The notes under the pieces: model-generated
What the model saw: the letters and a program-made list of their open reading frames with translations, nothing else
Database searches by the model: none
Told to the model about the DNA's origin: nothing
Source: Harmothoe impar
Taxonomy: Eukaryota; Annelida; Polychaeta; Phyllodocida; Polynoidae
Reading direction: 5' to 3'
NCBI GenBank assembly: GCA_947462335.1
Contig: OX381721.1
Span: 33,408,303 to 33,472,302 of the forward strand
Length of the DNA: 64,000 bases
Translations under genes and position numbers: made by a program
Shown here: positions 24,329 through 63,618 of the stretch, one piece after another
Layout: every line of letters begins with the position of its first letter
Position numbering within the stretch: position 1 is the first letter of the stretch

Positions 24329-24983
24329 GGCTGTGTCTCAACAACTTGGGCCAATGTTTCGGTCTATGACCGGGTGCAATCTATGACCAGGTGCAATCTA
24401 TGACTGGGTGCAATCTATGACCGGGTGTAATCTATGACTGGGTGCAATCTATGACTGGTTGCAATCTTTGGCCGGGTGTAATCTATGACTGGTTGCAATC
24501 TATGACCAGGTGCAATCTATGACTGGGTGTAATCTATGACTGGGTGCAATCTATGACCGGGTGTAATCTATGACTGGGTGTAATCTATGACTGGGTGCAA
24601 TCTATGACTGGGTGCAATCTATGACCGGGTGTAATCTATGACTGGGTGCAATCTATGACCGGGTGTAATCTATGACTGGGTGTAATCTATGACTGGGTGC
24701 AATCTATGACTGGGTGCAATCTATGACCGGGTGCAATCTATGACTGGGTGCAATCTATGACCGGGTGCAATCTATGACAGGCTTGGGGAAAAAACGCTTT
24801 ATTTAGGGCAGATTAAGATATAAATGGTGGAAAATGTTAATGGGTGTTTTAAGACTTTATATCACTCATTTTATTTCAATTTCTATCTATATCTGCCCTA
24901 AATAAACTGTTTTCTTTCAAGCCAGTCATAGGTTTCACCCGGTCATTGACAAACACATTGGCCCAAGTTTGTGAGAAACAGCC
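24329..24983. repeat. Foldback MITE with expanded minisatellite arm, GGCTGTGTCTCA family
   Basis: The ends GGCTGTGTCTCA and GTGAGAAACAGCC and the core arms TTTATTTAGGGCAGAT / ATCTGCCCTAAATAAA match the copy at 16760. The left arm carries about 18-19 copies of a roughly 22 bp unit, TGACTGGGTGCAATCTA (about 24355-24780); the right arm has about one. It lies immediately upstream of protease A's TATA box. Confidence 0.8.
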
Positions 24984-28982: not shown

Positions 28983-31900
28983 CTGAATGATGGAATATAA
29001 CAATGAAGGTCAACCAGGTTTTATTGGTACATATATCATGCATTGGCCAAAAGGATTTAAGATGTGTTTTGGGTTACCAAACTCTGCATTTGTTTACATT
29101 CACTCTGCAGACAGGGTACTTTGGGGCTATTTTTGAAGTAAATTAGGAGTAAAGTGAAAAGAAAACATGTAACCTGAAACGCAGCTTACCTTTTTACCGT
29201 AGTTCAGAAAAGGAATAGGATATATGGTAAATACCCATTCAATGAGTTGTATAATTTCTCTTCATATTACTTTCTATGATAACAAACTATAAATCTATGT
29301 GGTTCTAAATCATGTTGTGAGACCCTAACCAGGCTTGTTAAGGATCTGCCTAGGGATTACATTATTCAAGATTTAACTAAGGGAGTGTTCATTTATTAGT
29401 TACAGGGGGGGGGGCTTACAAATTCAGCCCCTTTTAAGCAAAAAAGCCTGCGCGTTACTATAGTTCAAAGGGGGGGGAGCAAAATTTTTTCGGCACCTTC
29501 GGTGAGGGGGGACAGGGAACGTTCAAAGCGCTCTTGAGGGGGGGGCATAAAAAAAATTTGCGCCTCCGCACGAGATCTCAACATCCCCCCTCTGTAATTG
29601 AACACTCCCTAAATTGAAATTTGATACTCACAGGACAGATGCCCATGCCTCCCAGGGCGTGTCCTGCACAGAGCCGGCCCGTGGCCTGGATGTTCCACAG
29701 CTTGGCACAGTCTGCGTCCTTCCACTTAGGGAGCACCACCTGGAACGCCACATCTGCCACCCTGCCACCTGGTGCAAGAAACACAAACTAACATTACTTC
29801 AGGGGGACAACCTGGAACGCCATGTCAGCCACCCTGCCACCTGGTGCAAGAAACACAAACTAACATTACTTAGAGAGCACCTGGTGAGACAAACATAAAC
29901 TAACGTTACCCATCCACACTTTTAACCTCACAGCACCAAGCATGCTGGAAGTACTTTCCCCATCAACCTTTGGTGCCAGCAATGACACTCAGGTAAAGAG
30001 GTCGATGTGGTGCCAGCTTGAACTACCGTAATAGCCTCTTTAAGCGCAGGGGTCTTAAATAAGCGCAGGTCTCGTTTAAGCGCAGGTCTAGGACCCCTCT
30101 GAAACCCCAAATCTCTCTTTAAAGGTACTCATATAAGCGCAGGTCTCTGTATAAGCGCAGGGGGTAACAGGGAGTTGAAATTTATAAGCGCAGGGGCAGT
30201 GTGTCTATGTACCCACCTCCTTTGGTGCAGCCCCAGCCCTTGAACACACACTGCTGGTCGTCCTGAGGGAAGTTGGTGTCGGTCGGCGAGGCGAGCCCCA
30301 CCTGCTGAATGTCCTCCACGTGGTTGGGGTCGGACGGCACCGGTTCACTCAGACGCACCAGCGCTATGTCATTCAGCCACTTCTCTGTAATACAAAGATT
30401 TAGGTAGCACTTATTCATTTAGTAAATAGATGATGACTTATTTCAATGGCTCAATGGCCTCTGTCGATTTTGCATTAATCACATTGTTCAGCTACAACGC
30501 TTTGTGGCCATCAGTATTTCGCCGTTGGTGATTTGACCGACAGACCCTTATTTCATATAGTTAAGACATTAGGTAAACTAGTCCATCAGCAATCAAGATA
30601 TTATGGATCAACAGAACTTTTTCAAACTCTCTCAATTAATTGTTTATACCATTTGCTCACATAAAAAAACTTTTGTTAGGGGATCCCGCGAATAATTTTA
30701 GGGTTTTGGGCCTTTGAAGATAAAAAATAGTACAAAAACGATTTAAATCTTATTCTCAACGCCTAAAATAATGGGTAAAATGGCAACATTCAGAGTATAA
30801 AATGGTTGTATTCTATACCCTTGGTTATTTCAAACAACATCATAAGATCAAACTCATTCTAGATGATGATTCGTTGATAAATAAATTCAATGTTTTAAGT
30901 TAAAAATAGCAAATATCATTGGTTACAAATATATCAAAAGGTTCTCTAAAACGCCCAATTTTGTTCGGAATCATACATTTTCTCAGTAAACATGTGTTTG
31001 TATCCGGTTATCTAATATTAACTCATTTTGACAGATTTAAGCTGTATGCGGAAAGACCTGTGCAGTGGGTTTATATTCAACAAGTAGCGGTCAACCATAA
31101 TGATATTTTCCAGTGAAAATTGCAAAAAATTCTCAAAGGACGATTTTGGAGACGTGCGCGGTGATGAGAAGAAGTATCAGAGTGGCCTACACAGAGGCGT
31201 CAAAAGGGAGTCCAGGTTGCCTCCAGAAGGACTCGTCTCTTTAGGGGAGCCCAGGGCCTTATGTGGCTCCCTTAGATGACTCCCTTATGTCAAGCAGGGA
31301 GTCACCCAGGCTCCCTTAGGCGGTCTAGGCTTCCCTAAAGTGGAGAGTCATTCTGGAGGCAACCTGGACTCGTTTTGTCACTATTTCTTTTTTCTGTGTA
31401 AGGGAGTGTTCATTTATTAGTTACAAGACGGGGTGGTGGGTTTTGGGGGGCATAACAATTTCAAACCCCTCCTGAGGGGAGGTGTCAAAAATGCTGTCCC
31501 CTCTTGAGGGGGGCATAACAAATGCAGCCCCTTATAAGCATTAAGCGTGTTACTTTAGTTCAAAGGGGAGAGGCGAAAAATTTCCAGCGCATTGAGCGAG
31601 GGGAGGCATGAAAGGTTCTATGCACAAAAAAAGTTCGCGTCTCTGCACGAAAATCTCACCACCCCCCCCCCCTCCTTAATCAATAAATGACCACTCCCTC
31701 ATATATCAACATCACTCACTGTTGGAGTCGTACTGCGGGTGTATGATGATCTTGTCTGCCTTGATGACCCAGTCCTTCCACTCATCCCTGTCTATCACGT
31801 CTCCGATGAAGCCCTTAAAGTCGTCCCACAAGGAGGACTGAGGAAGATGTAATCCTTCGTGAATACATTGTTCAATGTAGCATGGGAAATAACCAAGAAG

Positions 31901-45689: not shown

Positions 45690-45960
45690 TGTAGGTTCCA
45701 AAAGCCTCTATAAAAATAAATGATATCCCTTTAACTAAGGCCTATACCTACAGATACTTGGGTATCACAAACGATACAAATTTAAATTTTAAGGCTCATG
45801 TCAAGATGATCAAGATCGCTGCCTAGACACGCCGATCGGAAAAGGGGCTCCCGGTATTTTTCGGTAACTGACGAGTTACGGTAGTTACACAAATCTGAAA
45901 CTGCTTTCAGTAATACATGAATACTCACTGCCAATGTTAGGCACCATGACAACTTGAAAT
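45690..45960 (+). pseudogene. Reverse transcriptase thumb fragment of an older non-LTR element
   Basis: The frame at about 45690-45824 reads IKINDIPLTKAYTYRYLGI and then NLNFKAHVKMIKIAA before a stop. This is the usual RT thumb motif (Y-LG-x-x-D...H). It sits directly upstream of the retrotransposon ORF1 and is a separate dead copy. Confidence 0.65.
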
Positions 45961-46216
45961 GTTGACTAGAGCAAGGACAGACGGTCAAGATTTGATAGCC
46001 CTGCCCATGAAAGGACGACTCAGGGCCGCCAAGGTAGTGTCAATCCCACTCGCCGTCACCGCTGGACAGACACCACCCCCCGCCGGAGCCTTCGACCCCA
46101 TAGCCCGGCTACGCACCTCGCCGTCACCCAGTCTCTTTCCCCTGCCGCCGCTACCCCAACGCACGCCGCCAAAGCCACCGAAGCCTCCCACTGACAAGGT
46201 AATCTCACCCATCGCC

Positions 46217-47536
46217 ATGGCTGACCCGCTTGAAGCGATTAATATCAGTCTACAGCAGATTTTCACGCGTCTTGGCAGTGTAGAAATAAATGGGTCTACA
46301 ACCAATACATCAATTGAGGGACTGAAAGAAAAGATGCGCCTGTTAGCATTATCCGTCGACAACCACGTGACAAATCAAACTGAACTGTCAACAACTGTCG
46401 ACCGCATGGCGTGTGCACTGAAAAGGAAAGCCTCAAAGATTGAATCGTTGGAACACAGGATAGCCGAGATGGAGAGAGATAGAAGGAAGCTTAATATTAT
46501 TATTAATGGCATGAAAGACGAGGCAAACTTCGACTGGGAACTAGAAGTTGGCAATTTGTTTGACGACCTGGGTCTGTCATACGACGTGTCTGAGATCGAG
46601 GCTATTTTCAGAATTGGCAAGAAACGGCACGACAGCAAGTTTCGTCGTCCCATCCTGTTGAAATTCAAGAACTTCGGGCAAAAGCTGGAACTATTCAGGA
46701 ACCTTAAGAAGTTGAAACACCACAAGGATAAATACGGCAAATTGTCGATCAACCTGTCCCCTGAGGATCAAAAAAGGCACCGAGATATCAGGGCGCTGAT
46801 AAAGTTTATCCGTGAACAAGACGACGTCTCTCCCGAGGATATCAAGCAAAAAGGTTTGTCGATTATTTACAAACGCGAAAAGTTTGCTTTCCATGAACTG
46901 AACAATCTGCCACTTGGAAAAAGACTGGTAGATGCCAAAACCAGGGTTGTCAGTGACGGTGTGGCCTTCCAGGGCCCGCACTCGCCCCTCTCCAACTTCT
47001 ACCCCAGTGACATTTTTTACGGTGGGCATTTATACGCCAATGCTGAGTGTTTATATCAGACCCAAAAAGCTGTCGCTGCTGGTAACCAAGGAGCAGCTCG
47101 CCAACTCATGTTAATGACAAACCCATACGAAGCAAAATGGGCAGGTGACAGATGTGGAGTTGCAGAAGACTGGGAGCAGAGAGACGAAAATGTCATGGAA
47201 CAGGTCATAGAGCTGAAATTCTCACAAGACAGTGAGTGTCTGGAAGCCCTACTAGCTACTAAGGGCTTCTTATACGAAGCCACCAAATCAGAAAGGTGGG
47301 GGTGTGGATTTGGCTTGGAAAACAGTGACGAGATTGCCCAGGATAAGATCACTGGAGAAAACAGGCTAGGTAAACTACTTGTTGAGTATAGAAGCAAACA
47401 GCAGGCTCTACAAGAGGAAAAAGAGGAAGCTGAGAGGAAGAACCAAGCAGAGGCTGATCGACAGGCTGAGCAAGCCAGACTTAACGCCCAGCCTCCACCC
47501 AGGACTCCTACTCCACCTGTAACACCACAACAGTGA
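46217..47536 (+). CDS. Retrotransposon ORF1: RNA-binding protein fused to NADAR domain
   Basis: The frame is open from 45959 (525 codons), but ATG at 46217 has an excellent context (GCCATGG) and starts right at the conserved part, giving 439 aa; the upstream 86 codons are Pro-rich. In 525-aa numbering, residues 100-175 form a coiled coil. Residues 176-310 look like an L1-ORF1-type RRM and C-terminal domain (RRKLNIIINGM, RRPILLKFKN, KYGKLSINLSPEDQ). Residues 336-479 match the NADAR (YbiA-like) fold: SPLSNFYPSDIFYGG, NAECLYQTQKA, PYEAKW, DWEQRDENVMEQ, ELKFSQ, WGCGFG and GENRLGKLL. A charged coiled tail with PPPRTPTPP ends the protein. NADAR proteins elsewhere cleave N-glycosidic bonds and include enzymes that remove ADP-ribose from DNA; here the role is unknown. 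The usual His after Glu in the AEH motif is Cys. Confidence 0.85.
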   Translation: MADPLEAINISLQQIFTRLGSVEINGSTTNTSIEGLKEKMRLLALSVDNHVTNQTELSTTVDRMACALKRKASKIESLEHRIAEMERDRRKLNIIINGMKDEANFDWELEVGNLFDDLGLSYDVSEIEAIFRIGKKRHDSKFRRPILLKFKNFGQKLELFRNLKKLKHHKDKYGKLSINLSPEDQKRHRDIRALIKFIREQDDVSPEDIKQKGLSIIYKREKFAFHELNNLPLGKRLVDAKTRVVSDGVAFQGPHSPLSNFYPSDIFYGGHLYANAECLYQTQKAVAAGNQGAARQLMLMTNPYEAKWAGDRCGVAEDWEQRDENVMEQVIELKFSQDSECLEALLATKGFLYEATKSERWGCGFGLENSDEIAQDKITGENRLGKLLVEYRSKQQALQEEKEEAERKNQAEADRQAEQARLNAQPPPRTPTPPVTPQQ

Positions 47537-47547
47537 ACTAGTAAATC

Positions 47548-48216
47548 ATGGCGAGTTACGTCAGGCCTACAACAATCATTATATACTCTGATATTCGAGG
47601 CCAAAACTTACAACCTATCGTTAACACTTTAAACACAACAGGTTGTAATATTGTTGTGATCAATCTGGGCGAAGTGAAACTAGAGCAAATGTGCTCCTCA
47701 GCGTCGATACACCTTGACACACATCCACTGGACATAGTGTACTTCCTCGGCGGAGCATACAACATGTTAAAATGCCATGAAATCCAAGGCATTGGCGCTA
47801 CCAAAACCTTTGAATGGCAAACAGCAGCAGAAATGGTGGTCTACATGGAAACGCTTTTTATTAAAGAAATAGGCCAGCTTAAGACTCGCCACCCTACAAG
47901 TCGTATTGTACTTAGTACCCTACCTGCAATGCAAATGAACAAAGTGTGTACAAATGCTACTGCACAGAGGCAAATATTGCTCGACTCAGCAATCTGGGAC
48001 ATCAACCAGCACATATATCAACTCAATAGGTTCAATGATATGTCCACTCCCTGGCTGGCTCGTTTCACACACAAATACCACAAGAGAAAAGGTAGAGACA
48101 ATGACTACAAGAGTCTAGAAGACGGGTTCACACCAACTACCGGTACCATAAAATCATGGGCCTCCCTACTGATTAATCACGTCAACACCCTTAAATTAAA
48201 ATATAATATAGATTAA
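47548..48216 (+). CDS. Retrotransposon ORF2: SGNH-hydrolase-like protein, degenerate
   Basis: 222 aa, ATG 11 bp after the ORF1 stop, so the two are probably translated from one transcript. The order of motifs resembles the esterase domain found in ORF1 of CR1-type elements: TTIIIYSDIRGQNL in block I position, DIVYFLGGAYNM in block III, a long middle helix with TSRIVLSTLP, and EDGFTPTTGTIKSWASL at the C-terminus where SGNH enzymes have D-x-x-H. The catalytic Ser context (GDS) is altered and the terminal His is replaced, so if the fold is right the enzyme is likely inactive. The call rests on pattern only. Confidence 0.55.
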   Translation: MASYVRPTTIIIYSDIRGQNLQPIVNTLNTTGCNIVVINLGEVKLEQMCSSASIHLDTHPLDIVYFLGGAYNMLKCHEIQGIGATKTFEWQTAAEMVVYMETLFIKEIGQLKTRHPTSRIVLSTLPAMQMNKVCTNATAQRQILLDSAIWDINQHIYQLNRFNDMSTPWLARFTHKYHKRKGRDNDYKSLEDGFTPTTGTIKSWASLLINHVNTLKLKYNID

Positions 48217-48329
48217 TTTATTCCTGAATAAATAGACAGTTATCCACTCCTGAAGACAGAAGCAGTTTTTAACAATTGCCTGTCAATTTCAGCTATGGAT
48301 GTGTCCTAAAAATATAGCGTATAGTTCTA

Positions 48330-49307
48330 TTGAACTATACGCTGATCAGACATGACAGACAATGGGGTGAACGTCAAGGCAGTGACCTACCAAAAATAGG
48401 AGGAGGACTTGGAATATATATACACGACTCAGTGATTGGTTACTGTCAATTTGAGTACGCGCATCTAAACATGTCAACTGCTGATATTGAATTACAAGTT
48501 GTTAAATTGTTGTATGAGAACCAGAAACGAGTGGTTATCATGAATGTATATCGGCCACATGAAGGTACATTTGAGGGATTTTGGAGAGCATTAAAAGAAA
48601 AGATTGGTCTTATTACTGACAAACATAAAATAAACTTGTACGTGATGGGAGACATGAATGTGAATCTCTTGACTAGAAATAATGCTGACGTTCAAACATT
48701 GTGTAATGGTCTAGGTGCCTTTGGCTTGACCAGCTGGATTGACAAACCCACACGTCACAGTGATAATCCTTCTTGTCTAGATTTAATTTTCTCCAGTGAT
48801 GATCGTTTAAACTATGCTGATGTTCTGAAGCCACACATTAGTGATCACGACTTAGTGTATGTATCTCGACGGAGAGTAAAGCAACCCATCATAAAGGTAA
48901 CCTTTAGAGGTAGAGGGCTGAAAAACTACTCGAATGTAAAACTATGCAGTAAATTGGATCTAGTCGACTGGTCGATGCTGGATAATTTGGCGCATGTAAA
49001 CGAAAAATGGGAGTACATCCTAGCACAAATTGTATTGATCTTAGATGTATTGTGTCCTTATCAAGACTTTGTAGTAAAAGAAAAAAGAGAGCCTTGGGTT
49101 TCAAATCACATGCTTGAAGAGATAAAAAACAAAGACCGATTAATCAACAGGGCTAGGAGGACTAGAAATGAAGCTGACATTGAGATTGCTAACACTGCAA
49201 AAAACTACATAACAAATATGTGTAAAAGTGCAAGAGAGAATCATGTTAAAGGTATACTAGAAGCGGCAAAGGATAATCCAAGAAATATGTGTATTTATAG
49301 ATTTTAA
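48330..49307 (+). pseudogene. Retrotransposon ORF3 N-part: endonuclease domain, truncated
   Basis: The first codon of the open frame is TTG and there is no good start. Homology begins mid-domain: GGGLGIYIHDSVIGY, YRPHEG, VMGDMNVNL, PSCLDLIFSS and HISDHDLVYV are the later motifs of an EEP endonuclease, while the N-terminal catalytic Asn and Glu motifs are missing. The linker runs to NPRNM, after which the frame leaves the RT (the natural continuation at about 49294 is in another frame). A deletion between linker and RT palm is inferred. Confidence 0.8.
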
Positions 49308-50367
49308 AAAAGCTTTCGATACCGTAGACCATTTAATATTGCTCAAAAAACTAGAAAAATATGGAATTAGGGGAAAAACTCTGTCTTGGATTCAAAATTA
49401 TTTAGAAAACAGGGAACAAGTTATGTTGGCTAATGGAACAGCTTCTGAACCTGAAAAGGTAGTCTGTGGAGTCCCCCAAGGGTCTATACTAGGCCCGTTG
49501 TTGTTTTTGGCCTACATAAACGACGTAGAGTCATGCTGTGTACACAGCAAAATTTCACTATACGCTGACGACACAGCCATATATATGTCCGGCGAAAGAT
49601 TAGATGAAATTGTACAATTCCTTCAAGCCGATCTTAACTCTTTTTCTAAATGGTGTGCAGGAAACAAATTGACTGTAAATGTTTCAAAGACAAAATACAT
49701 GAGTTTCAGCCACCGCCCTCGCATGTGTAATCTTGTGTTAAATAATGAAAGGCTTCTAAGGGTACCAACATATACATACCTTGGTGTAATCTTAGACCCA
49801 AAATTAAACTATGAAAAGTTCATAAGCCACCAGGTTAATAATGTGAATTACAGATCGTATCAAATGGCCAAGCTTGCCAGGTTCATGGGTACAGTTTTCC
49901 TCACCACGATTTATAAAACCTTTGTTCTCCCTGTGATCGAATACGGCGATATCTTGATAAGTAATGCTAACGTTGACTCACTTGTAAAACTAGAGAGATG
50001 TCAGAGTAAGTGCCTAAAGATAGCATTAAAGGTACCAATTAGAACCCCAACTGAAGATGTGTTAGCATTGACAAGGTCCAACTCAATTAAAGAAAGGAGA
50101 AGATCCCACATGTTGATAGCAGCCTATCAAAGGTCTAGACAGGATAAATATGTAGATCAGAGACAACTTATTACAAGAGGTTGGGATGGACCCATGCTGA
50201 AGATCCATTTCTCAAAACTGACAATGTACCAGCACAGTCTGGAGTATACATTAGCTACCCTATGGAACAACACTAAGGTTGAAGACAGGATAATACCCTC
50301 TCTGGAGCTTTTTAAAGCTACCATGAAGCAAAGGCTGATTGAAAAACTCCCCAATCCTCCAGACTGA
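49294..50367 (+). pseudogene. Retrotransposon ORF3 C-part: reverse transcriptase, 5'-deleted
   Basis: Continuous frame from motif A (FIDFKKAFDTVDH) through GVPQGSILGPLLF (motif B), YADDTAIYM (motif C, catalytic Asp pair), TKYMSFSH, TYTYLGVILDPKLNYEKF (thumb) and a C-terminal tail to stop at 50367. The finger motifs before A (about 200 or more residues) are absent. Family features point to the CR1/L2/Rex group, but the 3' tail is poly(A). Confidence 0.88.
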
Positions 50368-54042: not shown

Positions 54043-54048
54043 TGTACT
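54043..54048. other. Target-site duplication TGTACT, left
   Basis: Exact direct repeat of 63613-63618, immediately outside the inverted repeat that begins AGTAGTATAG. Six-base duplications are the rule for Polinton/Maverick elements. Confidence 0.85.
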
Positions 54049-54460
54049 AGTAGTATAGTATGTATCGGAACGGGACTATAGTTAAGTACTGTTTATTACT
54101 CAATCGACATGCAGCCAATCAGAGGCCTCCATTTGGTCACGTGACCCCCTCATTTGCATAATTACGTAATAGGCCACGCCCCCTCATTTGCATAATTACG
54201 TAATAGGCCACGCCCCCTTGATCACCAGCCAATCAGGGCCGCCATTTGGTCACGTGACTCCCACGTGACCCCCTCATTTGCATAATAGACCACGCCCCCT
54301 TGATCACGTGACCCCCTCATTTGCATAGTAGACTACGCCCCTTTGATCACCAGCCAATCAGTGGCTTCCATTTGGTCAGGTGACTCCCTCATTTGCATAA
54401 TCATGGATCACGTGACCCCCTCATTTGCATAATAGGACCACACCCTCTTGGTCACGTGAC
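54049..54460 (+). repeat. Left terminal inverted repeat
   Basis: Begins AGTAGTATAGTATGTATCGG. After about 60 bp it becomes a modular array: CAGCCAATCAG (54112-54122), GGTCACGTGACC (54135-54146), CATTTGCATA (54151-54160), ATTACGTAAT (54161-54170) and GGCCACGCCCCC, repeated with small variations six times or more. Confidence 0.9.
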
Positions 54461-54613
54461 CGGAAGCGCTCTTTATTTAGAGAATAGGCCACACCCCCTT
54501 GGTCACGTGACTTGACCCCCTCCCTCATTTGCATAATATAGACAATAGACAGACTACGCTTCCCTTTTGGTCACATGACTTGGACTAGCTAATGGGAGGC
54601 TTCTATAAGGGGC

Positions 54614-54730
54614 GAGGGGAGGGGAGGGGGGGGAGGGGGGCACTTTAAGATGCATGGGGAGGGGAGGGGGGGGAGGGGGGCACTATTTATGGGGTGGGCG
54701 GGCACTTGGGGGGGAGGGGGGGCCTTTGGG
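54614..54730. repeat. Purine tract repeats in the Polinton-like element
   Basis: GGGGAGGGGAGGGGGGGGAG followed by GGGGGGCACT occurs twice with a 46 bp period and a third partial unit follows. It could form G-quadruplex or triplex DNA. Confidence 0.8.
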
Positions 54731-54782
54731 GTCTGCTCGGGAGAAAAAAAAAAAATTATCTGATCTCTAGGGAATCGCTTCC

Positions 54783-54818
54783 TCTCTACCCCCCTTTAGG
54801 GGGGTAGGGAGGAGGCGA
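54783..54818. other. Inverted repeat CCTCTCTACCCCCC / GGGGGGTAGGGAGG
   Basis: A near-perfect 13-14 bp stem with a 4-5 nt loop (TTTA/G), just inside the purine tract. Confidence 0.7.
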
Positions 54819-55007
54819 GTCGGAGGTGACTGTAGAGGAGTTTTTCGGTGACTTGATGCCTTTCAAACGACTGTGCTGATAGTTGATGAATTTGACTTTT
54901 TGACTTGAATATTTCATGCGACTTTGTGACTTGTAAGCGAAAGCGAAAGCGACTTTGCGACCCGTAACCCTTTAAATAAAGAGGTGACTTTGTAACCTCA
55001 GGGGGGA

Positions 55008-55042
55008 GATCCTTCTACACCCCCACGGAGTAGAAAGGATCT
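55008..55042. other. Inverted repeat GATCCTTCTAC / GTAGAAAGGATC
   Basis: A stem of about 11 bp with one bulge around ACCCCCACGGA, followed within 60 bp by a long A-run (55080-55117). Function unknown. Confidence 0.65.
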
Positions 55043-55439
55043 CGGTTGATTGACTGTACTTTGACTTGTTGTTGTAAACAAAAAAAAAAAAGAAAAAAAA
55101 AAAAAAAAAAAAAAAAATCAATGAATAGAACGACCCCCTCATTGCTAACAAAGGAACGACTTTTGAATTACACAAATGACCCTCGTTTTGTAGGGGTTAG
55201 CGGTAACTCGACTTGAATTAGAGTATTAGGGAGAGCAAAACGCGACCACACACCGTCTTAGACTGTCGTCTTACGGCCCGGATAACAATAACCCTAGTTA
55301 CCTCGGTTACTGTTGCTCAAGAGACGGCGATGGATCTGGTCACGTGGATACTGAAAGAAGGTCTACCTATAACCACCACGCTAGTTTGAACGCGGCGGGT
55401 ATGAGTCATCATGGGGCCCTTGACGGGTGGGTCCTCCCC

Positions 55440-55800
55440 ATGCAGCCGTATGTCGAATTTAAGAAATGCCCATGTCACACGTCACTAAGGGAGAAAACGT
55501 TTTTTGAAAATATTTAGAACCCGAATTTGAGCATTCTGGTACATTTTTAAGGACCCAGACACTGCAAAGCCGAGTACCATCCAAGAGAAAAAAAAATTTG
55601 GCGAAATGTTTAGGCTTGAAATGGCACTTTTCTGATGCACTCTTTGAACATTTTTTTTTTTCCTCATGTCACTATGGTCCATGGCACATGTGGGACTCAA
55701 GAAATGCCACATGTCCCATGTCACTTAGATGTCCGTGCCCGTGTCGTCGTATCGAATTTTAAGAAAATGCCCATGTCACCATATCGAATTTAGGGGTCTA
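55440..55800. repeat. AAGAAATGCCCATGTCAC repeats
   Basis: Variants of TCGAATTTAAGAAATGCCC followed by CATGTCAC occur at about 55452, 55697, 55755 and 55785, separated by ORF-less sequence. They are specific to this element in the window. Confidence 0.65.
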
Positions 55801-55978
55801 GTGACATCAACATGTCCGGCTATCCTCCACAAATTTAGCTCTAAAATGTTTACTTTTTTTTTTGGGCTGATTTTTCATCATTTTAAAAAAAAACAATAGG
55901 TTGTTTGAAATGTTTGCTGTTGTAAATAGAAACAAAAACAAAACAAAAGCGCATGGTAAGATTATGTCACATTGCAAG

Positions 55979-56027
55979 TGGCGGGTCCGCTCGAGGCTTA
56001 TTCAGCCTCTTCGTGGATCCGCGACTG
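55979..56027. other. Hairpin GCGGGTCCGC..GGATCCGC
   Basis: GCGGGTCCGCTCGAGGC and GCCTCTTCGTGGATCCGC form an imperfect stem of about 17 bp around TTATTCA. Confidence 0.6.
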
Positions 56028-56133
56028 CCAATGTGATCATATACTAATCACCGGTGTTTACGGTATTATATACTAAGGTATGAGACGGGTCTTACAGAAA
56101 AGGTGTCTAAAGAGCCCTGTGACCTGATTGAAA

Positions 56134-56141
56134 TGACGTCA
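56134..56141. promoter_or_regulatory. CRE palindrome TGACGTCA
   Basis: Perfect CREB/ATF consensus in the Polinton-like element. A second perfect copy is at 57251-57258, just upstream of the 117 aa CDS. Confidence 0.5.
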
Positions 56142-57099
56142 GCGCCGTCTGCTCGTCAGTGCCCGGCTGTAGCCCGTAGGACATGTTATTCTGCTTTTCT
56201 GGATGTTTTGAAATATTTTGATTTAACTGTTAATACCTGATAACAAGCCTCTGAAGCAGATTTTTGGTCGAGCACCTGTTCTCTACTCTTCCATCGATTA
56301 GCTGCTTCAGCAAAAAAAAAATCGCGCGCGCAGTCTAGTCTATATGACGAAGTCGCTAAAGCTCTGTTTAGAGAGTGGAACTTGACCTTGAGTATAGACT
56401 CAGTACTAACTGAACGCCCCGCGGGGTCACCCCTCACGTGGGAATATGTACAAGCTCTGGTTCTTCACTTTACAGCTTGACTAAAACTGAGACGCGTCCA
56501 TGATAAACTCTAGCCTTTTTTTTCCTTTACTAGGATCGAGAGAGAGATTTTAAATGGGGCGTTTATCTAAATAGCGTGGAACTAAAATCAGGCTGCGGCA
56601 GATAGTATCTCTGCGCACCTCAAGACTCAACGTAACTTTCACTCTCCAGCAGAAGTTTAGTTGTGACTAATGATGGGCGGCGACCGTCGTGCACTGGCGG
56701 ACATTGGAGAGTGTTGGAGAGCTGAACCTTACAGACATATAAATCAATCGCTTTGGTGGAAATATCTCGCCATAGATTGGAACCAAATACTTATCTAATG
56801 GAATCGTTATCAGTTTTCAGTTTTCTTGCCGTACAAAATTTATTTCCCACTCTTCACGTGGTGATAGCTGAAGGTCGCTCGTCGTAGGTACGTGTGACCG
56901 GAACACCCTTTTTGTTTTTGGCGCGGGTTGACATCAGATTTGTACCGTACTGTCGCGATTAAGAGCTCTGAGGGAGGGCTTTTCAATTCGGTGAAGTTCT
57001 TACTCAGGAGCTATATACAAGCCAGGCGCTGGCGCTTATTCAAAGTCGCGATTTTAGTGCTTGAGAAAAAACATTTGGAGGCTCTTATACTCCGGCGCT

Positions 57100-57258
57100 T
57101 ATAAAAGACCGGCACGCTTTTCAACACTAGTTGCTTTATCGCGACCGTACGGTATGACTTCGGTGTCAAAAGATCCCAAACTCCAAATAAGGAAGTGAAA
57201 CGACGTCGTCTGTCTACCTCGCGCGCGTCATAGCGTCGTCGAAAATAGTGTGACGTCA
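57100..57258 (+). promoter_or_regulatory. Predicted promoter of the 117 aa CDS
   Basis: TATAAAAG at 57100-57107 and a perfect CRE (TGACGTCA) at 57251-57258 lie 195 and 37 bp before the start codon. The CRE is downstream of the TATA, so it would be in the 5' UTR or serve a second, TATA-less start. Confidence 0.4.
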
Positions 57259-57294
57259 GCATCTCTCAGGTGGCTAGGAAGTCAGTTCGACAAA

Positions 57295-57648
57295 ATGGCT
57301 CACAGAGTGAACTTCGTGGCCGTTTCTCGATCTATGATCGATGCGGCCGTGGAGAAGGAATTCGTAGCCGTGCAACAGAGAGAGGAGGCGGAGAGACAGA
57401 ACTTCGTGGCCGTTTCTCGATCTATGATCGATGCGGCCGTGGAGAAGCAGTTCGTAGCCTCGCTACAGAGAGAGGAGAGACAGCGGACTGCTGCTGAAGC
57501 AGAGGGTGTGGTGGATGAGCTGATCGAGAACGTCGCTGATCAACTCATCCGCCGGTGCGTGGAGCAGGTCAAGCAGCAAGTCTGCATGGAGGAAGGCTTA
57601 CCGCCCGCCGTGCTGGAGGAGCTGCTGAAGGACTGCCACGCGTTATGA
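57295..57648 (+). CDS. 117 aa protein with duplicated NFVAVSRSMIDAAVEK motif
   Basis: ATG at 57295 in AAAATGG context is preferred to the in-frame GTG at 57250, which is only an open-frame extension. The protein is MAHRV, then two near-identical blocks of NFVAVSRSMIDAAVEKXFVA (X is E or Q; residues 6-25 and 38-57) separated by a charged linker, then VVDELIENVADQLIRRCVEQ and a helical C-terminus ending DCHAL. It has no signal peptide, no membrane segment and no domain I recognise; it looks mostly alpha-helical. Codon use is GC-richer than its surroundings. The block duplication is also visible at DNA level. Function unknown. Confidence 0.6.
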   Translation: MAHRVNFVAVSRSMIDAAVEKEFVAVQQREEAERQNFVAVSRSMIDAAVEKQFVASLQREERQRTAAEAEGVVDELIENVADQLIRRCVEQVKQQVCMEEGLPPAVLEELLKDCHAL

Positions 57649-57878
57649 CCACGCCCTCCGCTTCAGCAGCAAGGTCCCTGCGACCCTCTCTCTACCAAAC
57701 GGTCCTTTTAAGGACCAACCACTGATCACAAAAGTTGAAAATCAATCTCAATATAATATACGCATCAGAAAAACCCTAATACGCTATACACTGAAACCCT
57801 GTTGAGTAGGTAGATCGAGTTGGGCATTTTTTTTTTTAGGAAGAGCAATCAGGTCATCGTGTGGAGATCATCAGGTGT

Positions 57879-57883
<5 letters not shown>

Positions 57884-57945
<62 letters not shown>
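57884..57945. repeat. (TG)n microsatellite
   Basis: About 30 uninterrupted TG units, 235 bp after the 117 aa CDS. Confidence 0.95.
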
Positions 57946-57947
<2 letters not shown>

Positions 57948-58369
57948 TTTATACAAATACAATTATTCATTCCTTTCAGCAAGAAAATTAGCTCAATGTA
58001 ATCATATGATTTTAACTGCCCTACTTATCAGAGCCTTGACGACATCTGACCGCCCCCCTTTTCAAGATCTAAATGGAAATTCACCGCCACCGCTTTTCAG
58101 AGTACTGCAGCGCCATTACCTAATTCTTTTTGTATGTGAAAAAAAACAGCACTGATAAGGGGTTTAATTAGACAGATATTGGTTTCTACACTATCAAAAA
58201 AATAAAACCCTCAGCGCTTTAATGCTAAAGGTGGCAATAGTGCTTTAATGCGCTACGCCCTTTGTCGATACGCCAGTGTATGCATGCATGCAGCCCTGGT
58301 GAGGAACTCTGAGTGCCGCATTCATGACTTATGACGACAACGGGCACTGCATATTAAAGCGCTATGCGA

Positions 58370-59705
58370 CTATTAAAGGGTTAGATCCAGTCTTGCTACA
58401 GGCATCCAGAATGCTATACCCAGAGTTGGTGGTCTGGTCCAGACTGCTGTACACAGATTGTAGACGGGATGGCGGGTTGCTGCCAGACTATCCCTCTGGT
58501 ACGATATGCGGCTGGCGCGGCCGAGCCTGTCTTATATGATGCTGAGTCTAACTATGTATTAGATACCCTACGAGTAACTGAGAGTATGTCAAAATAATCA
58601 CGGCAAACTGACTGGCGTCTTCATAGGATCATAGGGTGGTTATTATTACATAACTCAGTAACCTTTGGTTATGTGTTAGATAGAGTACGCTTGGACACGG
58701 TTATTCCATATACCCACTGCCCCACAGGGTCAAGACGAGGTGATTTAAATAATAAGACCCAGACGGGTAAAATAGCCAAAGTCAACAATGACCTGTTTTG
58801 TTTTGTTTTTTTTGTTTTTTTTAGCCAATATGGACAAAGAGACACGGGGTGCTGTACACAGGTTGTGGACGGGCTGGTGGGTCACTGCCAGACTATCTCC
58901 CTGGTCCGATATGCAGCCGGCGTGGCCGAGCCTGTCTTATATGATGCTGAGTCTAACTATGTATTAGATACCCTACGAGTAACTGAGAGTATGTCAAAAT
59001 AATCACGGCAAACTGACTGGCGCCTTCATAGGATCATAGGGTGGTTATTATTACATAACTCAGTAACCTTTGGTTATGTGTTAGATAGAGTACACTTGGA
59101 CACGGTTATTCCATATACCCACTGCCCCACAGGGTCAAGACGAGGTGATTTAAATAATAAGACCCAGACGGGTAAAATAGCCAAAGTCAACAATGACCTG
59201 TTTTTTTTTGTTTTTTTTAGCCAATATGGACAAAGAGACACGGGGTGCTGTACACAGGTTGTGGACGGGCTGGTGGGTCACTGCCAGACTATCTCCCTGG
59301 TCCGATATGCAGCCTGCGTGGCCGAGACTGTCTTATATGAGGCTGAGTCTAATTATGTATTAGATGTGCTACGAGTAACTGAGAGTGTGTCAAAATAATC
59401 ACGGCAAACTGACTGGCGACCTCATAGGTCAGTTATTATTACATAACTATTATTACATAACTCAGTAACCTTCGGTTATGTGTTAGATAGCGTGCACTTG
59501 GACACGTTTATTCCATGTACCCGCTGCCCCACAGGGTCAACACGAGGTGTTTAAATAATAAGACCCAGACGGGTAAAATAGCCAAGTCAACAATGTCCTG
59601 TTTTTTTTTAGCCAATATGGACAAAGAGAAACGGGGTGCTGTACACAGCTTGTGAACGGGGTGGCGGGTCGCTGCCAGACTATCCCCTGGTCCGATATGC
59701 AGTAA
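58370..59705 (+). repeat. Four tandem units (~405 bp) with exon-like ORFs
   Basis: Full units start near 58669 and 59073. A partial first unit (58430-58597) and a shortened last one (59475-59705) flank them. Each contains a T-run ending TTTTTTTTAG followed by CCAATATGGACAAAGAGA-type sequence. In one frame the units end in GAGA-poor but conserved peptides: VDGLVGHCQTISLVRYAA, EPVLYDAESNYVLDTLR and VTESMSK then stop (58597, 59002, 59398). Unit 1 keeps the peptide with amino acid changes and unit 4 has a one-base loss. The pattern suggests duplicated terminal exons with a 3' splice site, or a 106-109 aa intronless ORF. Product unknown. Confidence 0.65.
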
Positions 59706-59900
59706 ATTTTCTGCACCGTGTGACAACGACCGATCAGCTACCAACCTATTTTTGGTTATTTTTCTATTCAGTTTTTGATCAGCGCACTTTATTATCGTGG
59801 TTTTTTTTTTTTAATTTTTTAATCATAAATAATATGTAGACTTGGAAAAAAAAAAGAGAGCTGACATGTCGCTGTTTTGTCACTAAACCCAAAGACCCAC

Positions 59901-60101
59901 CCACCCCGTAGGAAGGGTGGACGTTTGTGAACGTTCCCTTAGGTCTCTATTCTTTATTTATTGTGTGGCCCCTAAAGAGGGGCCAACCAACTGACACTGT
60001 CAGTTGGTTAGTAGATGCTACTCAACATGGGCGTAATTAATTACACCTAGTGTTGAGAAACAACATGACTGAGCTCAAAAGGCCCCCGTTGGGTGGGGGC
60101 C
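59901..60101. other. Cluster of five strong hairpins
   Basis: Consecutive inverted repeats: 59901-59920 (CCACCC/GGGTGG), 59967-59984 (GGCCCCT/AGGGGCC, 4 nt loop), 59985-60009 (perfect AACCAACTGACA/TGTCAGTTGGTT), 60021-60057 (CTCAACA...TGTTGAG with TAATTAATTA centre) and 60081-60101 (GGCCCCC/GGGGGCC). Three abut or nearly abut. Such spacing is not expected by chance; an RNA structure, transcription end or replication signal are all possible. Confidence 0.7.
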
Positions 60102-60879
60102 CTTGTGGCACAACGAGTTGGTTCGTTTTTCAGATTACCGACTCGGCGAGAGTTTCTGCCTATGTATCTTTTATAAAGCCTTAGATATGGTGTGGTATTT
60201 TTCATCTCGCTATAGTTTAGTTGGTATTCAAAGAAACTGCCTCATTTCTATCAGAAATACACAATATTGAATTGTTTTTATATTTTAATATATTCAGAAG
60301 CACACTTTGTTGCCTATATAGCTCATTATGCGTTGAAATGTTCGCGAGCATCGTAGGAATGTACAAATCCCCTATTGTGGCGCCATCTGACGAAAGAGCA
60401 AGGAACTATACGTGACCTGAACCCCGCCCTCAGCGCGTTCGTTATTCGCATCTTTGACAGCGACTAAGAGACGCTCAAACTGTCTCTTATTTAGTTTGAA
60501 CTTATCACAAATTTGTCTTTGATAGGTCGTAGATCGACTTCTGACTTTTTAGTTAGAATAAAAAACAAGTGACGCCGCCACAGACCCGCGCATTAACGCG
60601 CTCCGCCGTCTTCAGAGGGCCGAGTCTATAGTACAGTAGATTCTACTGTGTACTTACACTAACAGTGCTACATATACATACCTGAGTCATAAGTGGGTTT
60701 TTTTTTTTGGTTTTTTAGGGGAAAAAAAGTGATCTACTCACCCAAACCGCTATTAGTAGGTAACCTGTATGACCCATGCCGCAAACATCTGCCTCGTGAC
60801 TGATAGTGTACCGGTGGTGAAGTGCTGTTGCAAGAACAATTGAGGCTCTTTATATAGCTGAGAGAGCGAATGGACTAAT

Positions 60880-61465
60880 CTTGTTTTCACCTTGAGCCCC
60901 ACCCTATTCCAGAGAGGGTATCAAAAATCGCATGTACACGTATATGGGCTTATAGCTGGTGAATAGATAAGGCGGGGCACCTGTGTATACTAAGACTCCA
61001 GGGGGCGTTTTAACGACAGGTGTGACGCGCCAGCCCGTGGAGGGAGCTTTTTTGTTTTTCACCTAGAGAGCGTATACAAAGCCTACAGGGGGTGATTAAC
61101 GCCCGGTGTGACGCGCCAGCCAGTGGCCGGATCACCTCATCTTCTAAGCTTTTGTTTTCACCTAGAGAGGGGATCGAGAGTGTATACAAAAAACTACAGG
61201 GATGTTTAACGCGGCCAGCTGCCTACATGCTATAGTCTAAGCCTGTTTTCAGCTAGAGAGGGATCTACATCACCTAAGCCCTTTCCACCCTTAAATCGAT
61301 CTGATAATTACCATAAAGAAGAGTAATGCGCGTTACATGTATATGGGCTTATAGCTGAGTAAGAGCTTAAGATGCTAGTCAACTGTGTATGCAAAAAAAC
61401 AAACTACAGGGGGTGTCTAAAGTCGATTGTCATGCGCCAGCGGGCGGACAGAAGTCTGCCACTCT
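60880..61465. repeat. Degenerate repeats, ACCTAGAGAG..GTATACAAA..CTACAGGG units
   Basis: Units of about 110-130 bp contain TTTTCACCTAGAGAG, GTATACAAA, CTACAGGGGGTG, TTAACG and GTGTGACGCGCCAGCC. Three to four are visible, and TGTATATGGGCTTATAGCTG occurs at both ends of the region. No ORF is conserved. Confidence 0.65.
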
Positions 61466-61752
61466 AGCTGTGACTACAAGCGCGTGCGTGTGGTAGACAG
61501 CTTAAATCAAACACGAGTTAAGCTCCTTATAGCTTCCTACTGTCTGCGGATTCGAGTCTTTTGTTTTTTTCATGTATTTCCTCGGAGGGTCGAACAGGAT
61601 TAAAGATGTAACGAACCCGCGCCTACACAGGTAGACAGCCGGTCGCCTTCCTAGTGAGAGTTTTCCTCCTGAGTTAAGAAGCTTATCTCGGAGCCTAGTA
61701 CATAAGCGAGAGTGAAACATGAGTCCCACACACTTCTTCAACCACCTTCAGC

Positions 61753-63066
61753 ATGGCGTCATCAGGAATCACTCTACGTTCTACCGAATGTGAGCAATCC
61801 CAACACTACTACAGAGCCGCGACAACACCACATGAGGAGACGTCCATGTTTACTGATGAGTCAACAAGTAGCAAGGTGGAGGTTGGTTTTTATCAAGATT
61901 CGTACGGGTGGCTGGAAAGTGTGAGGGCTACTTCTGCAGCTAATGCTGCTGCTCGTGCAAAACGTGAAGCTCGTAAGGTGGAAGTTGGTTTTTATCAAGA
62001 TTCGTACGGGTGGCTGGAAAGTGTGAGGGCTACTTCTGCAGCTAATGCTGCTGCTCGTGCAAAACGTGAAGCTCGTATCGCTGTTCGTGCTACACATGTA
62101 GCATACGAAGTTGCCAATGCTGCTAACAACGTTGCTGTTACTCTCGCCGCTGCTGCTCGTGCTGCTAATCTTTTTGCTACTGTTTCCGCTCTTGCTACCG
62201 ATGCTGCTGCTACTGATGCTGCAACGTCTGCTAAAAGTGTCGCTGTTGCGGCTGCTGCTAGGGCTAATGCTATTAATGCTTGTACAGCTGCTAAAAAAAT
62301 AGCCTGTTTTGCTTATGCTAGTCGCAGTGTCGCTGTTACGGCTATGACTGATGCCCATGATGCTAAGTTACGGGCTTCTGCTTTTGCTGAAGATGCTGTT
62401 GATGCTCAAGATGTTGCTGCTGCTGCTGCTACTGCTGCTGATGAGGCTGCTGCTGCCGCTGCTGCTGCTGCTGAAGATGCTGCTGCTGCTGCGGCTGATG
62501 CTCTAGACACCTATGACGCTGCTGCTCTAGACACCTATGACGCTGCTGCTGCTGAAGATACTGCTGCCGCTGCTGCTACTGCTGCTGCTGAAGATGCTGC
62601 TGCCGCTGCTCTAGACACCTATGACGCGGCTGCTGCTGCTTTTGCTGAAGCTACTGTTGATGCTGCTGCTGCTACTGCTGCTGCCGCTGCTGCTACTGCT
62701 GCTGCCACTGCTCTAGACACCTATGACGCTCCTGCTACTCCTGCTCTAGACACCTATGATGCTGCTGCTGCTGCTGCTGCCACTGCTCTAGACACCTATG
62801 ACGCTCCTGCTACTCCTGCTCTAGACACCTATGATGCTGCTGCTGCTGCTGCTGCCACTGCTCTAGACACCTATGACACTCCTGCTACTCCTGCTCTAGA
62901 CACCTATGATGCTGCTGCTGCTGCTGCTGCTGCTGAAGATGCTGCTGCTGCTGCTGCACTAGTCATCTATGACGTGGCTACTGCTCTAGACACTTATGAC
63001 GCGGCTGCCGCTGCTGCTGCTGCTGAAGATGCTGCTGCTGCTGCTGCTCTAGACACCTATGACTGA
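61753..63066 (+). CDS. 437 aa alanine-rich repeat protein of the Polinton-like element
   Basis: Single open frame from ATG (GCATGG context) to a TGA just before the right inverted repeat. Residues 1-40 are a Ser/Thr-rich head. Residues 41-108 are two nearly identical 34-residue blocks (KVEVGFYQDSYGWLESVR, then ATSAANAAARAKREAR). Residues 109-220 are Ala-rich helix with regular Ala/Val/Arg spacing. From about 250 to the end, poly-Ala segments of 5-11 residues alternate with AEDA and LDTYDA (about 12 times), the last residues being LDTYD. The DNA is mostly GCT/GCTG repeats, but LDTYDA units are precise to the codon, arguing for selection or recent unit duplication. No signal peptide or known domain. 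A fibrous or coiled structural protein is the best guess; a poly-GCT artefact is the alternative. Confidence 0.65.
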   Translation: MASSGITLRSTECEQSQHYYRAATTPHEETSMFTDESTSSKVEVGFYQDSYGWLESVRATSAANAAARAKREARKVEVGFYQDSYGWLESVRATSAANAAARAKREARIAVRATHVAYEVANAANNVAVTLAAAARAANLFATVSALATDAAATDAATSAKSVAVAAAARANAINACTAAKKIACFAYASRSVAVTAMTDAHDAKLRASAFAEDAVDAQDVAAAAATAADEAAAAAAAAAEDAAAAAADALDTYDAAALDTYDAAAAEDTAAAAATAAAEDAAAAALDTYDAAAAAFAEATVDAAAATAAAAAATAAATALDTYDAPATPALDTYDAAAAAAATALDTYDAPATPALDTYDAAAAAAATALDTYDTPATPALDTYDAAAAAAAAEDAAAAAALVIYDVATALDTYDAAAAAAAAEDAAAAAALDTYD

Positions 63067-63199
63067 AAACATAGTAGGCGTTATTTACAAACACTGCTGT
63101 TACCTATGCCTAAACTTAGTAGGTCTTATTTACAAACAAGAGAGCCACGTGGTGTTGTTTACAAACAAAGAGAGCCACGTGGTGTTGTTTACAAACAAA

Positions 63200-63612
63200 G
63201 ATAGTCACGTGATGTTGTTGTGGTCTATCATGTCAATGAAGGGGTCACGTGATCAAGGGGGCACGGTCTATTATGCAAATGAGGGGGTCGCGTGACCAAA
63301 TGGCGACCTCTGATTGGCTGGTGATCAAGAGGGCGTGGCTTATTATGCAAATGAAAGGGTCACGTGATCAAGGGGGCGTGGCCTATTATGCAAATGAGGG
63401 GGTCACGTGACCAAATGGAAGCCTCTGATTGGCTGGTGATCAAGGGGGCGTGGTCTATTACGTAATTATGCAAATGAGGGGGCGTGGCCTATTACGTAAT
63501 TATGCAAATGAGGGGGTCACGTGACCAAATGGAGGCCTCTGATTGGCTGCATGTCGATTGAGTAATAAACAGTAGTTAACTATAGTCCCGTTCCGATACA
63601 TACTATACTACT
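63200..63612 (-). repeat. Right terminal inverted repeat
   Basis: Reverse complement of the left repeat, very similar over the outer 155-200 bp and then modular, with some units gained or lost. Inner units (GAGAGCCACGTGGTGTTG) continue almost to the stop codon of the alanine-rich gene. Confidence 0.9.
63564..63569 (+). terminator. AATAAA in the right inverted repeat (outward)
   Basis: AGTAATAAACAG near the outer edge. The mirror copy at 54092-54097 on the minus strand faces the other way. Each could end transcripts leaving the element, including that of the alanine-rich gene, about 500 bp downstream of its stop. Confidence 0.45.
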
Positions 63613-63618
63613 TGTACT
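63613..63618. other. Target-site duplication TGTACT, right
   Basis: Exact copy of 54043-54048 immediately outside the right inverted repeat. Confidence 0.85.

Follow-up and report, generated by a model that had tools for sequence, protein, structure and literature searches.

A 9.6-kb element with Maverick-type ends carrying a likely gene and a putative histone-type 3′ stem-loop in the annelid Harmothoe impar

The stretch of DNA analysed here (64,000 nucleotides of Harmothoe impar contig OX381721.1, hereafter the window) contains at positions 54049 to 63612 an element of 9,564 bp (9.6 kb), with ends of the type that bounds Polinton/Maverick transposons and an open reading frame (ORF) of 117 codons followed by a putative histone-type 3′ stem-loop. 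The target-site duplication TGTACT is found directly outside either end of the element (54043–54048 on the left and 63613–63618 on the right). The left terminal inverted repeat (54049–54401, plus strand) starts AGTAGT and carries octamer, CCAAT, E-box and CCACGCCC motifs, while the right terminal inverted repeat (63270–63612, minus strand) ends ACTACT and carries the mirror set of motifs with five octamers. The element begins with AGTAGTATAG and finishes with CTATACTACT; its first 30 bases, starting AGTAGT, are exactly the reverse complement of its last 30. Pairing between the arms was recovered as two inverted-repeat pairs, one of 193 nt and 98% complementarity (54044–54236 with 63425–63617) and one of 140 nt and 89% complementarity (54262–54401 with 63270–63409). 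A 24-base piece near the end has one copy in each arm and none elsewhere in the window when up to three mismatches are allowed, an outcome seen in 0 of 100 shuffles.

In a survey of vertebrate Mavericks (PMC8097293), the end motif seen most often is 5′-(AGT)2//(ACT)2-3′, (AG)3//(CT)3 also occurring, and 6-bp duplications, terminal repeats of 46–1,447 bp and an intact size of 12.7–24.6 kb are reported; the end repeats are expected to serve jump-back initiation by a protein-primed polymerase. The element resembles the Mavericks described there in its repeats of a few hundred base pairs (approximately 353 bp, within the published range), its (AGT)2//(ACT)2 motif and its perfect 6-bp duplication, and differs from the intact ones in size. 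Since end motif, duplication and repeat length (the three features tested) agree, ends of the Polinton/Maverick type are supported. An earlier note on this DNA, made from the sequence alone, had proposed long inverted repeats, an exact 6-bp TGTACT duplication and Polinton/Maverick-type boundaries; all were borne out, with the AGTAGT and ACTACT termini adding to the duplication. Matches to the repeats were also sought in viral sequence. The inner repeat piece CCCCCTCATTTGCATAAT had no match in IMG/VR, and the 17-mer TTATGCAAATGAGGGGG and an 18-mer from the element end were found in five and six IMG/VR stretches, respectively, about the number expected by chance on a rough estimate. In the one stretch inspected by eye, that nearest to a contig start (L011), the resemblance to the repeat went no further. 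Positions 54049–54560 had no match in phage records.

The interior of the element was scanned with Pfam in six frames, with X placed at stops. No family exceeded its cut-off in the 9,564 bp: neither a protein-primed family B polymerase nor a retroviral-type integrase gene was recovered, nor was any capsid, ATPase or protease gene, although fast-evolving capsids could escape a scan of this limited sensitivity. Three names below threshold (E 0.013, 0.071 and 0.075) were disregarded. As a control, the same scan of three forward frames of a long interspersed nuclear element (LINE) at 45.6–50.7 kb recovered RVT_1 and NADAR, with Exo_endo_phos just under its cut-off (21.1 versus 24.5 bits). At Pfam sensitivity, and with this control working, the claim of the earlier note that none of the Polinton genes is present was upheld. 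The element is not classed as a Maverick because polymerase and integrase were tested for and not found; it differs from Mavericks in having no detected protein-primed polymerase, integrase, ATPase, protease or capsid gene. We infer that it works as a satellite of a Maverick.

The 117-codon ORF lies on the plus strand at 57295–57648, has six homologues and is predicted to encode a long helix. Length alone is weak proof of coding, with an ATG ORF of at least 117 codons arising in 148 of 500 first-order Markov simulations of 54049–61700. A single-sequence search identified three relatives among 123 candidates (E 9.3e-50 to 2.4e-14). A profile incorporating these three identified six among 7,992 scored candidates, of which three were new (E 6.0e-20 to 8.9e-16) and the first three were re-found by construction. 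The relatives (P0001 to P0006) derive from short ENA contigs (longest 537–1,537 bp) and align to the window ORF with identities of 93, 84, 44, 46, 40 and 34%, respectively. Twenty columns are invariant across the seven sequences, the window included, and 16 of these fall from residue 72 onward. A 30-residue unit is present twice in the window and once in P0002 to P0005; P0001 starts inside the first of two units, and only the end of the unit is recognisable in P0006. G+C content by codon position is 0.69/0.34/0.69. We consider the ORF likely to be a gene, judging from its sequence and its relatives. Pattern searches for further relatives produced 133 stretches in IMG/VR and 589 in GTDB contigs, none of which was confirmed. 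Upstream of the start, TSADL in P0003 and P0005 resembles the in-frame TSASL of the window, so that this stretch is conserved too.

AlphaFold2, run with a four-sequence alignment, predicted a 99-residue helix accompanied by a short one (pLDDT 91, pTM 0.43). The 117-residue protein is acidic, with 22 D+E and 14 K+R. For this protein, neither viral models nor solved structures gave a fold match with E of 0.001 or lower, no Pfam family exceeded its cut-off and no histone family matched. None of the six relatives carries an annotation or Pfam domain tying it to a virus or transposon. Several weaker candidates were set aside. A ubiquitin-like match, seen with the profile and the fold, was rejected as it covers approximately 16–21 residues and its profile score sums over polyubiquitin copies; a match to SRA1 in three of four members (best E 0.0068, window 0.026) was weak, under the cut-off and not used. 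Other sub-threshold Pfam names and a match to PHROG 6264 (E 0.0059, a family of unknown function) were likewise not used.

Downstream of the ORF, a histone 3′ UTR stem-loop with its flanks was matched by Rfam model RF00032 (Histone3) at 57696–57740 on the plus strand. The stem-loop itself (GGTCCTTTTAAGGACC, 57701–57716) possesses a 6-bp stem and a 4-nt loop and is located 52 nt past the stop codon. The Rfam match (E 7.8e-6 for the 64-kb window and 4227 families) spans the full length of the model without a broken pair and runs beyond the stem-loop to 57740. The pattern occurs only here in the window on either strand, folds with a predicted energy of −9.4 kcal/mol (z −3.1) and is separated from the stop codon by a stretch containing neither AATAAA nor ATTAAA. 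Upstream, a candidate TATA box (TATAAAA, 57100–57106, plus strand) lies 195 bp before the ORF and is the only plus-strand TATAAAA in the element. A TATA box forms part of the anatomy of replication-dependent histone genes. Stem-loop, TATAAAA and intronless ORF together reproduce this anatomy. As in the histone genes described in PMC5706932, the ORF is intronless and a stem-loop follows soon after its stop, whereas the element protein, acidic and predicted to form one long helix, matches no histone family. On the strength of the sequence pattern, we predict that the 117-codon mRNA is cut at the histone-type 3′ stem-loop and limited to S phase. Matches to two further Rfam families were rejected because they lie in trinucleotide repeats or a strong hairpin: isrG scored no more than 29.2 bits (cut-off 100) and MIR1219 29.7 (cut-off 79). 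A palindrome resembling the cyclic AMP response element (TGACGTCA, 57251–57258) starts 44 bp before the ATG of the ORF; a further copy is found at 56134, and the window contains seven.

The terminal regions are densely populated with short motifs. Seven octamers (ATTTGCAT) are found in 54152–54534, five within the left repeat and two beyond it at 54423 and 54527, and five more are found in 63273–63509, so that the two sides hold 12 of the 15 octamers in the window, 10 of them inside the repeats. Against the seven octamers of 54049–54560, 2000 simulations averaged 0.027 and never exceeded one. All six window copies of CAGCCAATCAG and all four of TTACGTAA are within the repeats, and the six copies of GTCACGTGAC all fall at 54136–54511 and 63402–63525. 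Where the inner part of the repeat has diverged between the arms, 3 of 74 motif columns differ compared with 22 of 121 other columns; the two classes were taken as non-overlapping, and a motif intact in either arm was counted, which favours conservation. Each repeat additionally contains an outward-facing AATAAA (54092–54097, minus strand; 63564–63569, plus strand), a possible poly(A) signal.

NF-I sites, which bind host factors in adenovirus, are CCAAT-like. In adenovirus terminal repeats, NF-I and NF-III/Oct-1 motifs bind host factors that promote replication, according to extracts from PMC6410123 and PMC6141750. The element resembles this arrangement in having octamer-type and CCAAT-type sites shortly inside its end, and short end repeats fit jump-back initiation. 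It differs in possessing many copies of the sites over approximately 0.5 kb and in having no adenovirus gene; the likeness is one of motif type. Octamers also mark and drive S-phase H2B promoters (parts of PMC5706932), although those of the element sit in its ends and not beside its gene. By analogy with these two systems, the octamer and CCAAT repeats would suit an S-phase promoter, a replication origin, or both.

The arms of the repeat also bear upon the age of the element. The outer 188 bp differ by two mismatches and one gap at the inner edge, whereas the next 224 bp of the left arm contain 25 mismatches in 195 aligned columns and 40 gap columns in a forced global alignment. The outer part appears young or recently evened out, whereas the last move left the differences in the inner part in place. 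A recent move, as had been claimed on the near-identity of the outer repeats, is thus plausible, with the near-identity confirmed for the outer 188 bp and countered by the 25 differing columns further in.

We propose that the element is a non-autonomous Maverick satellite, moved in trans and carrying a likely gene of 117 codons whose expression would be coupled to S phase; we put the probability of this reading at roughly 55%. That the element moves, depends upon a helper and is expressed is what we infer from its structure. The terminal AGT repeats would allow the protein-primed polymerase of the helper to initiate and then jump back, in line with what has been proposed for Mavericks, and the integrase of the helper would paste the copy in, producing the 6-bp duplication. 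Octamer (POU) and CCAAT sites could recruit host factors, acting as an S-phase promoter or enhancer, as an adenovirus-like replication origin, or both. SLBP and U7 would form the 3′ end of the 117-codon mRNA, which would lack a poly(A) tail and be confined to S phase, the time at which a replicating element would gain from the product.

Several observations weigh against this proposal. The Histone3 match scores 33.4 bits, just below the Rfam cut-off of 34, and 60 simulations put the chance expectation of the bare stem-loop pattern at 0.22 per 64 kb. An AATAAA at 58201, approximately 485 nt past the stem-loop, could yield a polyadenylated transcript instead. Tandem duplication, as opposed to independent origin, accounts for part of the copy number of the terminal motifs. 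The nearest octamer lies approximately 2.7 kb away from the 117-codon ORF, making a direct promoter role on that gene less likely. The divergence of the inner repeat speaks against a very young, fully homogenised copy. Finally, the combination of gene, stem-loop and Maverick ends is described from this one locus.

Foremost among the other explanations, though in our view rather unlikely, is that the element is an internally deleted and decayed Maverick that has lost its core genes or had them replaced by repeats, with the 117-codon gene and its stem-loop representing an ordinary Maverick accessory gene. The vertebrate survey (PMC8097293) is in keeping with such a history: 96% of the surveyed loci are degraded, the accessory regions of most vertebrate Mavericks contain ORFs encoding a variety of proteins, and 9.6 kb is below the 12.7-kb minimum of intact elements. 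Decay is harder to reconcile with the six-frame scan, in which no trace of a core gene was found although the outer repeats differ at just 2 of 188 positions. The gene might alternatively have been captured passively from the host together with its histone-type 3′ end, so that the stem-loop reflects host origin and plays no role in the element. The stem-loop is indeed a host-type signal, and nothing in the annotation or Pfam domains of the six relatives links them to a virus or transposon; however, the 30-residue unit is doubled in the window and P0001 and single in P0002 to P0005, an instability atypical of a conserved host gene, and in the absence of a Pfam family above cut-off no known host family is recognised. 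We regard capture as improbable.

Little more can be said for a coincidental stem-loop in an element that is non-coding apart from chance ORFs, which we judge slightly more improbable still. The score just below the Rfam cut-off and the unremarkable length of the ORF (148 of 500 simulations) fit such a coincidence, whereas six protein relatives and a full-length Histone3 match including flanks (E 7.8e-6), with its stem 52 nt past the stop, speak against it. Lastly, the ends could belong to another superfamily that generates 6-bp duplications, namely IS3EU, GingerRoot or Dada. Dada elements give duplications of 6–7 bp. IS3EU (usually) and GingerRoot share the 6-bp duplication with the element, but extracts from PMC10045372 describe ends of TA..TA for IS3EU and mostly TA..TA, occasionally TG..CA, for GingerRoot, as opposed to AGTAGT..ACTACT here, and autonomous members encode a DDE transposase; no transposase was found in the element by the six-frame Pfam scan. 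This origin appears highly improbable.

Should the satellite reading be correct, the element would represent a non-autonomous Maverick with a gene of its own, and a case of mobile DNA making use of the 3′ processing of histone mRNAs. As a satellite moves only if its helper works, it would report on live Mavericks in the host and so make it possible to ask directly whether they are still mobile there, as well as whether selfish DNA has taken over histone-type RNA processing. A more general proposition, which we advance tentatively and consider doubtful, is that Mavericks have genomic satellites, parasitic on a parasite, that retain just the ends needed for replication and integration and carry a gene built in the manner of a replication-dependent histone gene, with octamers that serve both as S-phase promoter and as protein-primed origin; such a satellite would be expressed while host and helper replicate their DNA. 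Among the matches listed in a search of open-licence literature (titles and the beginnings of abstracts), we found neither a histone stem-loop in a transposon nor a non-autonomous Polinton/Maverick, which is weak evidence of absence.

The remainder of the element contains repeats and hairpins. A tandem array with a 405-bp period and 3.2 copies (58445–59702, plus strand) displays no sign of coding constraint: copies 2 and 3, compared over an ungapped 218-bp prefix, differ in 6–7 non-synonymous and 1–2 synonymous codons per forward frame, a small sample. With differences mainly non-synonymous in all three forward frames, an exon-like reading of the array is unsupported and was rejected. An alanine-rich ORF of 437 codons (61753–63066, plus strand) lies in trinucleotide and longer repeats, owes much of its length to repeats in steps of three and is of unproven coding status. 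Its first 150 residues had no match at E 1 or better among the 7994 scored candidates sharing most words, and the protein had no Pfam family at E 0.1 and none in PHROGs at E 0.01. Strong predicted hairpins are present inward of the left repeat (54763–54827, plus strand; 20 consecutive pairs, z −6.7) and as a string of four over approximately 140 bp (59965–60105, plus strand; z −3.6 for 59878–60012 and −3.1 for 60010–60120). The structured DNA described in the earlier note was confirmed, as was the tandem array, albeit without support for its being exon-like. Its two coherent ORFs fared differently, the 117-codon ORF having six relatives and the alanine-rich ORF none detected. Taken as a whole, the earlier interpretation is partly supported: it is borne out for the ends, for the missing core genes at Pfam sensitivity and for one ORF with relatives, half borne out for recent movement, and unsupported for the exon-like array. 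Neither the histone-type stem-loop nor the octamer and CCAAT arrays figure in the earlier note.

Elsewhere in the window, positions 24329–24983 hold an array of short units resembling TCTATGACCGGGTGCAA, arranged in steps of 17 and 34 bp with an inverted copy at the end and a 59-nt inverted-repeat pair at its ends. A hairpin of 174 bp at 31203–31376 resembles a miniature inverted-repeat transposable element, with 52-nt arms that are 85% complementary; a match to MIR1882 there falls well below the Rfam cut-off (38.3 versus 107). The LINE-like unit at 45950–50367 opens with an ORF (45950–47536, 528 residues from stop to stop) that contains a NADAR domain (E 9e-23). Behind this ORF come an endonuclease-like frame that stays under its cut-off and a reverse transcriptase (E 9.5e-27).

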